From Acidobacteriota bacterium (GTDB taxonomy: Bacteria; Actinomycetota; Acidimicrobiia; Acidimicrobiales; Palsa-688): a stretch of DNA of 64,000 nt. Shown in pieces: positions 7,115 through 13,974 of this stretch; the stretch's first letter is position 1; each line of letters opens with the position of its first letter. The position numbers and the translations under genes are program-made. The DNA lies in contig JAGWSF010000098.1 in the NCBI GenBank assembly GCA_028876385.1, forward strand, positions 1-64,000. Reading direction: 5' to 3'. The notes under the pieces are model-generated. The model saw only the letters and a program-made list of their open reading frames with translations, did not search any database and was not told where the DNA came from.

Positions 7115-8143
<1,029 letters not shown>

Positions 8144-8153
8144 TGATTCTCTC

Positions 8154-8654
8154 CTAGCTTGCCTTTCGGGCTTTGGGCAGCGCGACGCGGCCGGTGCGCT
8201 GAATCTCGATGATCCCATAGGGTCTCATCAGGTCCTCGAAGTCGTCTAGCCGGTCGGGGTCCCCGGCCACCATGACGCTCAGTACGGTGGCTCCGACATC
8301 GACGATCTTGCCGTCGAAGACCCCTACCAGCTCGATGATCCCCCGCCGGTCGTCGGGGGTCGCCGACACCGTCATCATGAGCAGTTCCCGTTCGACCGAG
8401 TCGGCCGGGTGCAGCTCGGTGATCTTCACCACGTTGACCAGCTTGAACAGCTGCTTGGTGATCTGCTCGACCGAGGTCTCCTCGACGTCTATGACCAGGT
8501 TCACCCGGCTGAAGCGCTCGTCGTCGGACGGCGCCACCGCCAAGGAAATGATGTTGAAACCCCGGCGGGCGAACAGCCCGCTGATGCGGGCCAGGACTCC
8601 CGCCTTGTTCTCGACCAGCACCGACAGGGTCTGGTGGGTGGACGACCCGGCCAT
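8154..8654 (-). CDS. ilvN: acetolactate synthase small (regulatory) subunit
   Basis: Regulatory partner of IlvB, 166 residues. The N-terminal ACT domain begins [29 protein letters not shown], a valine-binding region in homologues that gives feedback inhibition. The C-terminal ALS_ss domain includes [32 protein letters not shown]. The ATG at 8654 overlaps the ilvB stop by one base (TGATG), with AAGGTGG upstream, so translation is coupled to ilvB. A GTG one codon earlier (8657) is an alternative. Confidence 0.95.
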
Positions 8655-10396
8655 CACTGAACCACCTTCTTGTCGGTGGGCTTCTGGGAGGGGTGGACGA
8701 CGACGTCATCGTTGGCCGCGCCGGCCGGCACCATCGGGAAGACCTTCTCCCGGGCGTCGGTACGAAAGTCGATCACCACCGGTCGGTCGTCTATCGAGTT
8801 GGCTTTGTCGATCACCGCCTGGACCTCGGAGGGGTCCTCCACGCGGAACGCCGCGCAGCCCATGGCCTCGGCCCACTTCACGTAGTCGGGCAGGTCGGGG
8901 GAGAGGTAGACCTCGCTGTAGCGCTCCTCGTAGAACATCTCCTGCCACTGGCGGACCATCCCCAGGTAGGCGTTGTTCAAGATGGCGACCTTGATGGGTA
9001 TGCGTTCGCTCGAGGCGGTGACGAGCTCCTGGGCGGTCATCTGGAAGCAGCCGTCACCGTCAACCGCCCAGACCGTCCGGTCCGGACGGCCCACCTTGGC
9101 CCCGATGGCCGCCGGCACCGAGAAGCCCATGGTCCCGAGCCCCCCGGAGTTCACCCACGTATAGGGCTCGTTGAAGTGCCAGAACTGGCTGGCCCACATC
9201 TGGTGCTGGCCCACACCCGAAGCCAGGATTGTGCCCTCGGGGGCGCTGTCGCGCAGCACCTCCATGACGTGTTGGGGCTTGAGGGCATCGCCTTCGACGT
9301 GCGGGTCGTAGTGCAACGGAAAGCGCTCCTGCCACCCCGATATGCGACTCCTCCACTCCGACAGGTCGGCGGCTTCTATCCCGGCCGCCCCCAGCGCCTT
9401 GACGATCTCGGTGATCACCTGGTTGCAGTCCCCGACGATGGGGACGTCGGGCTGGCGGATCTTGCCCAGCTCGGCGGGATCGATGTCGACGTGGATGACC
9501 TTGGCGTGCGGCGCGAACGAATCCACCCGTCCAGTGACCCGGTCGTCGAAGCGGGCCCCCAGGGTGATGAGCAGGTCGGACTCCTGCATGGCGGTGATGG
9601 CGGTGTAGTTGCCGTGCATACCGGGCATGCCGAGGCACAGTTCGTGGTCGTCGGGGAAGGCGCCGCGGGCCATCAGGGTCGTGACGACGGGGATGCCCAT
9701 GCGCTCGGCCAACTCCCGCAGCGACTCCGCCGCCCGGGCCTTGAGGATCCCGCCGCCGGCGTAGATCACCGGCCGACGGGCCTCCCCGATCATCCGGGCC
9801 GCCTCTTTGATCATGCGGGGGTGGCCCTTCATGTTCGGCCGGTAACCGGGCAGGGACGCTGCCACCTCGTCGTCGGTCGGCCAGGACCATTCCATCTCGA
9901 CCTGCAGAACGTCCTTGGGCACGTCGAGCAGGACCGGCCCGGGCCGCCCGGTGGTGGCCAGGTGGAAGGCCTGCCGGACCAGGAGGGGGATCTCGTTGGG
10001 ATCCATGATCAGCTCGTTGTGCTTGGTCACCGACCGGGTGATGCCGACCGTGTCGCACTCCTGGAAGCCGTCCGTGCCGATCACGGCCCGGCCGACCTGG
10101 CCGGTGATGGCCACCATGGGCACCGAGTCCATGTAGGCGTCACACAGCGGCGTGACCAGGTTGGTGGCGGCTGGGCCGCTGGTCACCATGGCCACCCCGG
10201 GACGGCCGGTGACGTGGGCGTAGCCCTCGGCCATGTGGCCGGCCCCTTGCTCGTGGCGCACCAGGATGTGGCGGATGGGCGAATCGAGGATCGGATCGTA
10301 GGCCGGAAGGATGCACCCTCCGGGAAGGCCGAAGATCACCTCGACCTGCTCCATCTCCAGGCTCTTGATCAGGGCTCGAGCTCCGGTCATCTTCAT
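8654..10396 (-). CDS. ilvB: acetolactate synthase large (catalytic) subunit
   Basis: Thiamine-diphosphate enzyme (580 aa) that condenses pyruvate with pyruvate or 2-oxobutyrate, the committed step of Val, Leu and Ile synthesis. The N-terminal PYR domain contains the catalytic Glu (VRHEQGAGHMAEGYAHVTGRPG). The middle FAD/transhydrogenase domain follows, then the PP domain with GDGCFQMTAQELVTASSERIPIKVAILNN. ATG 10396 has GAAGGAA about 8 nt upstream; ATG 10390 is also possible. The gene lies downstream of a transcription attenuator with its own leader peptide, so ilvBNC expression should respond to charged Leu/Val/Ile tRNA levels. Confidence 0.97.
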   Translation of the reverse strand: MKMTGARALIKSLEMEQVEVIFGLPGGCILPAYDPILDSPIRHILVRHEQGAGHMAEGYAHVTGRPGVAMVTSGPAATNLVTPLCDAYMDSVPMVAITGQVGRAVIGTDGFQECDTVGITRSVTKHNELIMDPNEIPLLVRQAFHLATTGRPGPVLLDVPKDVLQVEMEWSWPTDDEVAASLPGYRPNMKGHPRMIKEAARMIGEARRPVIYAGGGILKARAAESLRELAERMGIPVVTTLMARGAFPDDHELCLGMPGMHGNYTAITAMQESDLLITLGARFDDRVTGRVDSFAPHAKVIHVDIDPAELGKIRQPDVPIVGDCNQVITEIVKALGAAGIEAADLSEWRSRISGWQERFPLHYDPHVEGDALKPQHVMEVLRDSAPEGTILASGVGQHQMWASQFWHFNEPYTWVNSGGLGTMGFSVPAAIGAKVGRPDRTVWAVDGDGCFQMTAQELVTASSERIPIKVAILNNAYLGMVRQWQEMFYEERYSEVYLSPDLPDYVKWAEAMGCAAFRVEDPSEVQAVIDKANSIDDRPVVIDFRTDAREKVFPMVPAGAANDDVVVHPSQKPTDKKVVQ

Positions 10397-10437: not shown

Positions 10438-10470
10438 AAAAAAGAACGACCCCCCGATTGGGAGGTCGTT
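10438..10470 (-). terminator. ilvB attenuator: intrinsic terminator
   Basis: Read on the minus strand, AACGACCUCCC (10470-10460) pairs with GGGGGGUCGUU (10455-10445) across an AAUC loop. This gives an 11-bp stem with one G-U pair, followed by C and six U (10443-10438). It sits 42 nt upstream of ilvB and is the attenuator terminator. Confidence 0.9.
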
Positions 10471-10471
10471 G

Positions 10472-10502
10472 GACACACACGCCGGTTGCGGGCGTGTGTG
10501 TC
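10472..10502 (-). promoter_or_regulatory. ilvB attenuator: leader hairpin (segments 1:2)
   Basis: A perfect 12-bp stem, GACACACACGCC with GGCGUGUGUGUC (7-nt loop), overlaps the stop codon of the leader peptide. A ribosome stalled on the Val/Ile codons would cover its 5' arm. The freed 3' arm (GGCGU, 10483-10479) can pair with ACGACC (10469-10464) of the terminator with one bulged A, a weak candidate antiterminator. This pairing is hand-folded, not computed. Confidence 0.7.
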
Positions 10503-10536
10503 AGGTGATTACTACGAGGGTCAGGCGCAGAGCCAC
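10501..10536 (-). CDS. ilvBNC attenuator leader peptide (11 aa)
   Basis: GTG start at 10536 and TGA at 10503-10501 encode MALRLTLVVIT. Six of the 11 residues are the pathway products (three Leu, two Val, one Ile). The two valine codons are GTA, rare in this GC-rich sequence, which would make stalling sensitive. A TATGCT hexamer (10548-10543) ends 6 nt before the GTG, so the transcript should begin at the start codon itself. Position, composition and the downstream hairpins together mark this as the sensor peptide for branched-chain amino acid attenuation. No homology is needed or claimed. Confidence 0.85.
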   Translation of the reverse strand: MALRLTLVVIT

Positions 10537-10542
10537 AGCCGT

Positions 10543-10548
10543 AGCATA
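10543..10548 (-). promoter_or_regulatory. -10 element of the ilvBNC operon
   Basis: TATGCT fits the TAnnnT consensus and lies 6 nt before the leader-peptide GTG, placing +1 on the start codon. No clear -35 box is visible. Confidence 0.6.
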
Positions 10549-10598: not shown

Positions 10599-11972
10599 TC
10601 ACCGGGCCTTGACCAGGATGGACTCGACGACGTCGGACGCCTCCTCGATCTGGTTCATGGCTTCCTCGAGGGAGGCGACGATGTCCTTCCACTTCAACAC
10701 CTCGAGGGCGTCGTAGTCCCCGCTGAAGAGCCGGGACATGCTGCGCCGGTGGATGACATCCCCGTCGTGCTCCAACTCCCCTATGCGTTCCAGGCGTCGC
10801 CTGGCCCCCTGGCGGCTGCGCAGGCAGCCGATCAGGCATCCGAGCTCGACGGCCATGGCGGCCAGGTTCTCGGCCTGCTGCTTCACCTCGGGGATCACCC
10901 CGTCGATGCGCACCGCCTGCATGAACGCCGCCGACGCCAGCATGGCGTCGAGCACGTCGTCGAGAGCCTCGGCCAGGGCGTGTATGTCCTCGCGGCGGTG
11001 GGTCGTGACGAGAGCCGAATCGAGCCGGCGCAGGACCTCGATGGTCAGCTGGTCGCCCTGCCGCTCGTAGCCGCGGGTCTCCTCGCAGCGCTCGTCGATG
11101 TTCGACGGGTCGTTGACCAGCTCGACCAGGACGGCCCCGCACCTGTCGATGTTGGCGGCGAGCCGCTCGAACAACTCCAAGAAGCGGTCGTCGCCGGGAA
11201 AGGCACCCAGCCGGCCCAGCCCGCGCACGAGTCGCCCGCCGAGCCCCCGGGCCGCTTCCGCCGCCTCCCGGGCGGGGCGCCGCCGGAACAACCGCCCCGA
11301 AGTCCGCCGACCAGGCGCCCACCGCCCCGAAGTCAGGCGGGCCGGCGCGGCGATGGCCGACGACCGGCGGGCCAGGTTCACGGCGTGATCGCCGAGGCGC
11401 TCGTAGAAGCGGGCGATCAGGGCCAGTTCGGCGGCCACGGCCGGTTCGACCCCGCCGGCCGCCCCCTCCCGCAGCAGGGCGACCGAGAGACTGTCGAGTT
11501 CGTCGTCGGCCTCGTTGATGTCGAAGCTGAGGTCGCGGGACCGCTCGGCGAAGGCCCGGGTCGACAGTTGCCACATCCGGATGCCGACGTCGCACATCGA
11601 CTGGATGATGCCCCGGGCGCGGGGGCTGATGGCCCCTCCCAGGTCCTGGCGGGCCCGTTGGGCGATGTGCTCGGCCAGATCGGCGCTGCGCTCGAGTTCG
11701 GGAACCATCTGGAGCACCGAGATCAGCTCTTCGAGCTCATCGGGTTCGACGGCGACGTCAGCCAGGCGTTCTTTGATCAGGCCGGTCAGTTCGCCGGCCT
11801 GATCGTCGATCTTGCGGTCACCCTCGATCACCCGCTCGGCGACCTCGAGGTCCTGGTCGAGCAGGGCGACGGTGGCCCAACCGAGGCTCTCCACCACGTT
11901 GGCGTAGAGCACCAGCATGGCCCGGTCGGTCTGCCGGCGGAAATCTTGGCGGCTCGAGCCGGACCTCCCCAC
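10599..11972 (-). CDS. PhoU domain - DUF47 (Pit accessory) fusion protein
   Basis: Cytoplasmic helical protein of 457 residues joining two related families. Residues 1-215 are a PhoU bundle with its metal-site repeats (VPELERSADLAEHIAQ and FYERLGDHAVNLARRS). An Arg/Pro-rich linker spans about 205-258. Residues 260-457 match DUF47/PhoU_div, the partner of Pit phosphate transporters (LFERLAANIDRCGAVLVELV, EDIHALAEALDDVLDAMLAS, EVLKWKDIVASLEEAMNQIEEASDVVESIL). PhoU modulates PstSCAB and the Pho two-component system; DUF47 proteins accompany low-affinity phosphate uptake. No transporter gene is adjacent, so the partner is unknown. GTG 11972 is preceded by TAGATT (11984-11979) at 6 nt, indicating a leaderless mRNA. 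Confidence 0.82.
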   Translation of the reverse strand: MGRSGSSRQDFRRQTDRAMLVLYANVVESLGWATVALLDQDLEVAERVIEGDRKIDDQAGELTGLIKERLADVAVEPDELEELISVLQMVPELERSADLAEHIAQRARQDLGGAISPRARGIIQSMCDVGIRMWQLSTRAFAERSRDLSFDINEADDELDSLSVALLREGAAGGVEPAVAAELALIARFYERLGDHAVNLARRSSAIAAPARLTSGRWAPGRRTSGRLFRRRPAREAAEAARGLGGRLVRGLGRLGAFPGDDRFLELFERLAANIDRCGAVLVELVNDPSNIDERCEETRGYERQGDQLTIEVLRRLDSALVTTHRREDIHALAEALDDVLDAMLASAAFMQAVRIDGVIPEVKQQAENLAAMAVELGCLIGCLRSRQGARRRLERIGELEHDGDVIHRRSMSRLFSGDYDALEVLKWKDIVASLEEAMNQIEEASDVVESILVKAR

Positions 11973-12126: not shown

Positions 12127-12132
12127 TAGCCT
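12127..12132 (+). promoter_or_regulatory. -10 element, ilvD
   Basis: TAGCCT, 6 nt before ATG 12139. The 166-bp divergent gap to the PhoU-DUF47 gene holds both promoters. Confidence 0.5.
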
Positions 12133-12138
12133 CGGAGC

Positions 12139-13974
12139 ATGCCCGCTCTGCGCTCGCGAATCACGACCCACGGTCGCAACATGGCCGGTGCCCGCGCCCT
12201 GTGGCGGGCCACCGGTATGACCGACGACGATTTCGGCAAGCCGATCGTGGCCATCGCCAACAGCTTCACCCAGTTCGTGCCCGGCCACGTCCACCTGCGG
12301 GACATGGGGGCGCTGGTCGCCGGTGCGATAGCCGAAGCCGGGGGGGTCGGACGGGAGTTCAACTCGATCGCCGTCGACGACGGCATCGCCATGGGCCACA
12401 GCGGGATGCTCTACTCCCTGCCGAGCCGGGAGCTGATCGCCGATTCCCTGGAGTACATGGTCGAGGCCCACCAGGCCGACGCCCTCGTGTGCATCAGCAA
12501 CTGCGACAAGATCACGCCGGGGATGCTCATCGCCGCCATGCGGCTCAACATCCCTACCGTCTTCGTGAGCGGTGGCCCCATGGAGGCGGGTCGGGCCGTG
12601 GTCCGAGACGGGGTGGCCCGGCCCGGGATCGACCTGATCACCGCCATGACCGCGGCCGCCGACGAGAGCGTCTCCGATGACGAGTTGAGCAGCATCGAAC
12701 GGTCGGCCTGCCCGACGTGCGGCTCGTGCTCGGGAATGTTCACCGCCAACTCCATGAACTGCCTGACCGAGGCCATGGGCCTGTCGCTTCCCGGTAACGG
12801 CTCCACGCTGGCCACCAGCGCGGCCCGCCGGGAGCTGTTCCTCGACGCCGGGCGGCTGGTCGTGGATCTGGCCCGGCGCTGGTACGACGAGGACGACGAT
12901 TCCGTGCTGCCCCGCCAGATCGCCAACCGGGCGGCCTTCTCCAACGCCATGATCGTCGACATCGCCATGGGCGGCTCGACCAACACCGTCCTGCACCTGC
13001 TGGCCGCCGCCCAGGAGGCCGGGGTCGACTTCGACATGGACGAGATCGACCGCCTGAGCCGATCCACGCCCTGCCTGTGCAAGGTGGCTCCCAGCTCCTC
13101 CTACCACATGGAGGACGTCCACCGCGCCGGTGGCATCCCGGCGCTCATGGGCGAGCTGGCCCGGGCCGGCCTCCTGGACCGGTCGGTGAGGGCGGTTCAC
13201 GCCGCCAGCCTCGACGAGTGGCTCGCCGAATGGGACGTGCGGGCCGAGACCCGCTCGGAGCGGGCCGTCGAGCTGTACCTGGCCGCCCCGGGCGGTGTGC
13301 GCACCACCGAGGCGTTCTCCTCGACGGCCCGCTGGGAGAGCCTCGACCTGGACAGCAAGACCGGTTGCATCCGCTCGGCCGACAGTCCCTACAGCGCCGA
13401 CGGCGGCCTGGCCGTGCTGCGCGGCAACCTGGCCGTGGACGGCTGCGTGGTGAAGACCGCCGGCGTGCCCGACGACCAGCTCGTCTTTCGCGGTCCGGCC
13501 CGGGTGACCGAGAGCCAGGAGGAGGCGGTGGACGCCATCCTGGCCGGCGACATCCACCCCGGCGACGTGGTCGTGGTCCGCTACGAGGGACCGCGCGGCG
13601 GTCCCGGCATGCAGGAGATGCTCTACCCGACCAGCTTCTTGAAGGGCCGGGGGCTCGGGCCTCTCTGCGCCCTGGTGACCGACGGACGCTTCTCCGGGGG
13701 GACCAGCGGGCTGTCCATCGGTCACGTCTCCCCCGAGGCCGCGTCGGGAGGTCTGATCGGCCTGGTCGAAGACGGCGACCCCATCTCCATCGACATCCCC
13801 AACCGGGCCATCACCCTCGACGTGGCCGACGAGGTGATCGAAGCCCGCCGCCGGGTCCGCGACGAGCAGGGGTGGAAGCCCGCCAAGCGCGACCGCAAGG
13901 TCTCGGCGGCGCTGCGCGCCTACGCCGCCCTGGCCCAGTCCGCGGATAAGGGCGCGGCCCGGCTCGTGCCCTAG
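12139..13974 (+). CDS. ilvD: dihydroxy-acid dehydratase
   Basis: Dehydrates 2,3-dihydroxy-isovalerate or -methylvalerate to the 2-oxo acids in Val/Ile synthesis. Length 611 aa, ILVD/EDD family. The cluster ligands are in [12 protein letters not shown] and [23 protein letters not shown], and the C-terminal block [15 protein letters not shown] is intact. ATG 12139 gives [21 protein letters not shown], as in homologues. There is no ribosome binding site at normal spacing, but TAGCCT ends 6 nt upstream, so the mRNA is probably leaderless. It completes the branched-chain pathway begun by the attenuated ilvBNC operon 1.7 kb away and ends 4 bp from convergent gatB. Confidence 0.97.

Follow-up and report, generated by a model that had tools for sequence, protein, structure and literature searches.

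The ilvBNC operon in the window, the 64,000-nucleotide stretch of DNA analysed here, has in front of it an attenuator that is genuine, conserved and of an already known type, and the sequence makes it very probable that the operon is controlled by ribosome-mediated transcription attenuation through a leaderless leader peptide, ilvL. The leaderless start is likely and is not new. New are the spread of this attenuator through the Acidimicrobiia, its occurrence as a codon-swapped set that includes isoleucine leaders in front of cimA, and a proposed switch made of two abutting hairpins. Leaderless attenuation is thus extended to a mostly uncultured class of Actinobacteria, for which no earlier report of it was found in the literature searched. 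The series of Val/Leu, Ile and Leu codon swaps on one architecture makes ribosome sensing testable from other genomes, and two abutting hairpins that share no bases must still switch somehow. Leaders of this kind, 10-16 codons long and lacking a Shine-Dalgarno sequence, are easily missed by gene callers.

Structure of the ilvB leader and its genomic context

On the minus strand, the genes 3′ of the leader are ordered ilvB-ilvN-ilvC. The first regulated gene, ilvB (8654..10396, ATG at 10396), encodes the acetolactate synthase large subunit (NF005860, 898.7 bits, cut-off 881), and is followed by ilvN for the small subunit (8154..8657; NF008864, 190.2 bits, cut-off 119) and ilvC for ketol-acid reductoisomerase (7115..8140; NF004017, 556.2 bits, cut-off 336). 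Directly upstream of the leader, on the same strand, lies a PhoU-like gene (10599-11972), whose N-terminal half matches a PhoU model and whose C-terminal half matches TIGR00153, both below their cut-offs. The divergent ilvD gene (12139-13974) has TAGCCT six nt before its ATG (12127-12139, plus strand) and may also give a leaderless mRNA; a GGAG within the same six nt makes that reading ambiguous. No attenuator was seen before ilvD in the window.

The leader region, also on the minus strand, begins with a predicted -10 element, TATGCT (10543..10548), assigned from its sequence and from the position of the hexamer in relatives, and the last T of this element would be position -7 if the GTG of the leader were the mRNA start. 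The six-base spacer ACGGCT (10542-10537) separates it from the putative leader ORF ilvL (10501..10536), which runs from GTG (10536-10534) to TGA (10503-10501), encodes MALRLTLVVIT and is backed by the GTA bias of its relatives. Its codons, GTG GCT CTG CGC CTG ACC CTC GTA GTA ATC ACC TGA (10536-10501), include three Leu, two Val (both GTA) and one Ile, and CTC GTA GTA ATC (10518-10507) are the proposed sensing codons. The 12-bp hairpin P1 (10472..10502), supported by folding and by covariation in relatives, is GACACACACGCC-CGCAACC-GGCGTGTGTGTC (10502-10472), with 12 perfect pairs and a 5′ arm at 10502-10491; it starts inside the stop codon, sharing the last two bases of TGA. A single base, 10471, lies between P1 and the intrinsic terminator T (10438..10470), whose stem-loop AACGACCTCCC-AATC-GGGGGGTCGTT (10470-10445) has an 11-bp stem including one G-U pair and a loop of AATC, and is followed by CTTTTTT. 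Folding, a terminator scan and covariation all support the terminator. Base for base, these elements agree with the first-pass annotation, which had read TATGCT, a GTG six nt on, MALRLTLVVIT, a 12-bp hairpin over the stop codon and an 11-bp terminator stem with six U from the sequence, and had taken the whole for a leader-peptide attenuator of ilvBNC; a conserved leader rich in branched-chain amino acid (BCAA) codons with rare GTA, together with an intrinsic terminator, bears this out.

RNA folding, which the annotation had named as a check, gave -52.8 kcal/mol for 10536-10396 compared with -42.5 +/- 3.9 for dinucleotide shuffles, and only 1 of 200 shuffles was as low. The terminator scan found 3 overlapping terminator-like sites at the ilvB leader where 0.1 were expected. 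No -35 consensus was present at the right distance, and a two-hexamer promoter search of the window returned 0 sigma-70-type promoters. We also observed that the terminator 3′ arm, GGGGGGTC in the window (10455-10448), is GGGAGGTC in most ilvB relatives, which matches a Shine-Dalgarno sequence perfectly and is not followed by a start codon; the terminator stem sequence in the ilvB loci looks more conserved than pairing alone requires.

Conservation of the attenuator in Acidimicrobiia

The comparison covered 80 ilvB loci, nearly all of them Acidimicrobiia by title or sequence. A locus scan that required a leader tail, a hairpin and a terminator, and left the -10 element free, recovered the leader, P1 and terminator architecture in 73 ilvB loci, the window included. 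The 73 do not include L004, whose terminator had been mis-assigned, or L070, L080 and L081, in which no P1 was found. The scan gave no leader for L003, L044, L052 and L054; L003 is truncated by the end of its contig, and the leader of L052 is visible by eye. The design is not universal, as some acidimicrobial ilvB genes (e.g. L054) have no leader that could be found.

In a covariation alignment of 44 sequences, compensatory changes occurred in 11 of 16 pairs, in both stems, with 68 covariation cells compared with 19.7 in shuffles. None of 500 shuffles was as good, and sliding the pairing partners made the signal far worse or destroyed it. For P1, both-side changes were found in 6 of the 7 modelled pairs. 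Thus the peptide and both hairpins are kept in the 73 loci, and the compensatory changes in relatives support the two stems that had been called from the window alone. Codon usage was equally uneven. GTA, which had been called rare, makes up 117 of 3589 Val codons (3.3%) in the ilvB coding sequences but 128 of 216 (59%) in the leaders of the same loci. Of the 73 leaders, 69 have their last GTA 3 or 4 codons ahead of the stop, and P1 starts 0 to 2 nt past the first stop-codon base in 61 of 73 loci. The ilvB leader architecture is not due to chance.

A model built from the ilvB leader alignment (R1, match threshold E<=0.01) matched in front of any of the attenuated genes in 200 of 247 sampled genomes of the class, leaving 47 without a match at that threshold. 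In a sample of the phylum, 74 of 296 genomes had matches, 51 of them outside the class.

Two observations concern individual records. In the outlying ilvB leaders of L070, L080 and L081, where an abutting P1 is missing, inspection by eye suggests that the last part of the leader ORF can base-pair with the 5′ arm of the terminator, as in a classical overlapping antiterminator, and this overlapping design is possibly the ancestral form. The ilvB loci of L021, L026, L047 and L081 are close to those of Acidimicrobiia, and the genomes are titled Bifidobacterium breve, Thermoanaerobacterales and Acidobacteriota; it looks as if the titles are wrong or the bins mixed.

Probable leaderless start of the leader mRNA

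Among the 73 loci, a NANNNT hexamer agreeing with TATAAT at 4 or more of its 6 positions stood 6-9 nt before the in-frame start in 41, compared with 4.2 expected from mononucleotide shuffles; at a cut-off of at least 3 matches the figures were 67 and 13. Outside the 6-9 nt distance the hexamer profile was near zero. The hexamer-to-start distance was 6 nt in 16 loci, 7 in 25, 8 in 14 and 9 in 11. A Shine-Dalgarno-like motif was absent in 71 of the 73 leaders and present in 2. Since the position of the -10-like hexamer is conserved and Shine-Dalgarno sequences are nearly absent, we predict that the 5′ end lies at the leader start; the mRNA likely has a 5′ UTR of anything from zero to about three nt. 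This is close to the earlier proposal that the mRNA starts at the GTG, and the -10 spacing on which it relied is conserved in relatives. A short 5′ UTR before the GTG, in which case initiation would not be strictly leaderless, has perhaps one chance in a few: the 6-9 nt distances in relatives make UTRs of 0-3 nt just as likely there, but the exact 6 nt spacing in the window fits a start at the G, and Shine-Dalgarno-like motifs are missing in 71 of 73 leaders whichever start is used.

What did not hold was the view that a leaderless start is unusual here. According to PMC11857589, citing Morbach 2000, transcription of C. glutamicum ilvBNC begins one nt away from the start codon of the leader, which lacks a ribosome binding site, and RNA-seq showed that the IlvL and leuA leaders of S. 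lividans are transcribed leaderless (PMC8079986). Because it has been reported in both Corynebacterium and Streptomyces, the leaderless leader start is established for the phylum.

Codon-swapped attenuators before other genes

Three such switches were found in the genome of the window, and their predicted sensing codons are matched to the pathway that each would guard. The second precedes leuB-ilvE-cimA (L104/L158; contig C33, 11172-11248, plus strand) and was identified as an R1 match, with the three genes behind it assigned by NCBIfam. Its leader, MITAAVHVAGTVIID, has a GTG six nt after TACACT, has GTA ATT ATC as its predicted sensing codons and ends in GTA ATT ATC GAT TAG. The third, recognized by eye, precedes leuA (L125, about 1210-1335, contig C101), where TATGAT is followed by ATG, the leader MRLVKTTGLLLLT with CTC CTT CTT CTG ACG TAG, a hairpin at the stop codon and a terminator. 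Class-wide, 25 of 30 leuA loci combine at least 3 consecutive Leu codons in the leader with the same order of stop codon, hairpin and terminator, and their -10 elements are mostly 6-8 nt upstream.

The composition of the last six codons changed with the downstream gene. In 73 ilvB loci they comprised 189 Val and 101 Leu of 438 codons, in 21 leuB loci 46 Ile and 33 Val of 126, and in 9 cimA loci 34 Ile and no Val of 54; the 25 leuA loci gave 95 Leu and no Val of 150, a row biased by the choice of leuA leaders for their Leu runs. The amino-acid content of the leaders differed by gene with a chi-square of 365, although the relatedness of the loci makes the p-value overstate this difference. Sensor codons following the downstream pathway on a constant architecture amount to a natural codon swap, which supports ribosome sensing as read from these sequences. 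The cimA loci L128-L137 of related genomes have leaders with three or four consecutive Ile codons (e.g. ATC ATC ATT ATT); in the literature searched we found no published isoleucine attenuator for citramalate synthase (cimA). For tryptophan, no leader with adjacent Trp codons was found in the 1.5 kb before one PF00425 (chorismate-binding) gene, that of locus L238.

Proposed mechanism and alternatives

In the proposed mechanism, RNA polymerase would initiate on the leader GTG or a few nt from it, and a ribosome would be loaded at the 5′ end with no Shine-Dalgarno sequence to guide it, as suggested by the position of the promoter and its conservation. A shortage of valyl- or leucyl-tRNA would make the ribosome stall at CTC GTA GTA. 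The front edge of a ribosome usually lies 16 nt beyond the first base of the P site; if the A site held the first or the second GTA, this edge would be at 10502 or 10499, and P1 could form wholly or largely. With plentiful tRNAs the ribosome would reach the TGA, its front edge at about 10490, and would cover the whole 12-nt 5′ arm of P1, so that P1 could not form, the terminator would fold and transcription would end. The regulatory sign is right in this model, as starvation would keep P1 and plenty would remove it. Because the ribosome would gate P1, this hairpin corresponds in position to the antiterminator, segments 2:3, of classical attenuators; the odds that it acts as one are about even.

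P1 and the terminator coexist thermodynamically, and no base-pairing conflict accounts for antitermination by P1. In partition-function calculations for the 73 loci, which are blind to steric or kinetic exclusion, terminator pairing was about 0.97 whether the ribosome was absent, stalled or at the stop. The gap between the two hairpins was -1 to +4 nt in 69 of the 73 loci (sd 1.7, with an sd of 4.3 for the P1 span), mostly 2-4 nt before leuB and mostly 0 before leuA. The scan favours strong P1 stems near the terminator, yet this clustering is not built into it, as gaps up to about 20 nt were permitted. Since P1 adjoins the terminator without shared bases, a preformed P1 abutting the terminator base may hinder terminator closure at the polymerase exit channel. 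We tentatively suggest a non-overlapping attenuator, in which closure of the terminator is hampered by a hairpin lying about 0-4 nt from its base and a ribosome at the stop codon relieves the hindrance by covering the 5′ arm of that hairpin, the same design being used with swapped codons for Val/Leu, Leu and Ile genes in one class. The report of Li et al. that a structure upstream of a terminator can inhibit its hairpin (PMC4824070) gives weak backing to this idea. Gupta and Pal described clustered hairpins as helping termination (PMC8355165); if that view applied, P1 would act in the opposite direction.

This opposite action, in which P1 promotes termination, either as a pause hairpin or as one member of a cluster of hairpins, and a ribosome trailing the polymerase controls read-through, is an unlikely competitor. 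Adjacent hairpin pairs have been proposed to terminate jointly (PMC8355165), and a ribosome close behind the polymerase can repress terminators (PMC4824070), but the front edge of a GTA-stalled ribosome would still be about 60 nt short of the U tract, a distance that simple coupling would not bridge, and a stop-codon ribosome, being nearer, would give more read-through in plenty, the wrong sign for a biosynthetic operon. We consider it somewhat less probable still that the leader is a classical attenuator with an exclusive 2:3 pairing, in which GGCGU of the P1 3′ arm binds ACGACC of the terminator 5′ arm and blocks the terminator. The pairing can be drawn in the window at -4.0 kcal/mol with the P1 5′ arm masked, and in the three outlying loci without an abutting P1 the leader end can, by eye, pair with the terminator 5′ arm, a true overlap. 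Against it, with the P1 5′ arm masked, the pairing of the terminator arm with upstream sequence averaged 0.30 in the 73 loci compared with 0.27 in shuffles, and the full terminator prevailed in every ribosome state. Moreover, GGCGU/ACGACC would be expected in amino-acid plenty, once the ribosome has reached the stop codon, rather than at the stall, which is the wrong direction. The weak pairing that the first-pass annotation had offered as the switch was therefore rejected, being no better than shuffles in three ribosome states and requiring the wrong ribosome position.

A constitutive terminator with a chance ORF, or a small-molecule riboswitch, would involve no codon sensing at all. No Rfam leader family scored above its gathering threshold at the ilvB leader, which would suit such a reading, but no riboswitch matched either, and the best sub-threshold hit was itself a leader-peptide family, Phe_leader (RF01859, 27.3 bits against a gathering threshold of 55); nothing in Rfam was above threshold, and no match bore the name of the ilvB-II motif. 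Given the in-frame GTA enrichment, the fixed position of the codons relative to the stop and a codon identity that tracks the pathway, we regard the absence of sensing as extremely improbable.

Comparison with known systems

In the E. coli trp attenuator, the regulatory codons stand a few codons before the stop, and the segment after the stop is gated by the ribosome. The sensing codons of ilvL are likewise near the stop, with a segment that would be ribosome-gated directly after them. Segment 3 of the trp leader is common to antiterminator and terminator, whereas P1 and the ilvB terminator share no bases.

Ribosome-mediated attenuation of ilvBN, as noted in the first reading, is already known in actinobacteria from published cases in C. 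glutamicum and M. tuberculosis, and candidate ilvB leaders were put forward for Actinobacteria in 2005 (PMC1262725). As cited in PMC1262725, codon changes in a candidate S. coelicolor ilvB leader had no effect, which would count against codon sensing by ilvB leaders. The Corynebacterium attenuator (Morbach 2000; ilvB-II motif, PMC10272879; three-hairpin model, PMC11857589) serves the same operon, and these sources describe a short BCAA-rich leader, hairpins corresponding to P1 and the terminator, and no ribosome binding site, all as in the window. Its leader is mostly 15-17 residues long, compared with 11 codons in the window, and its published antiterminator shares bases with the terminator, whereas at the ilvL locus the hairpins abut and no alternative pairing exceeds chance.

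In S. lividans, IlvL and LeuL (PMC8079986) are leaderless leader peptides before ilvBHC and leuA, as is predicted for the acidimicrobial set. The IlvL leader MRTRILVLGKRVG, the same peptide as in locus L200, has no LVV-GTA block; judged by eye, about 19 nt separate the first hairpin of L200 from its terminator, in contrast to the abutting P1 of the window. The S. lividans leuA leader has no typical terminator, unlike the acidimicrobial leuA leaders. M. tuberculosis ilvB1, likened here by its published description, resembles the window in having LVVI with GUA, a UGA stop and a Rho-independent terminator; induction is lost when LVVI is replaced by AAAA, and the antiterminator has been proposed to be blocked by a ribosome that has reached the stop codon (PMC13236596). 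Mutually exclusive structures have been proposed for ilvB1, whereas the ilvL locus has abutting hairpins.
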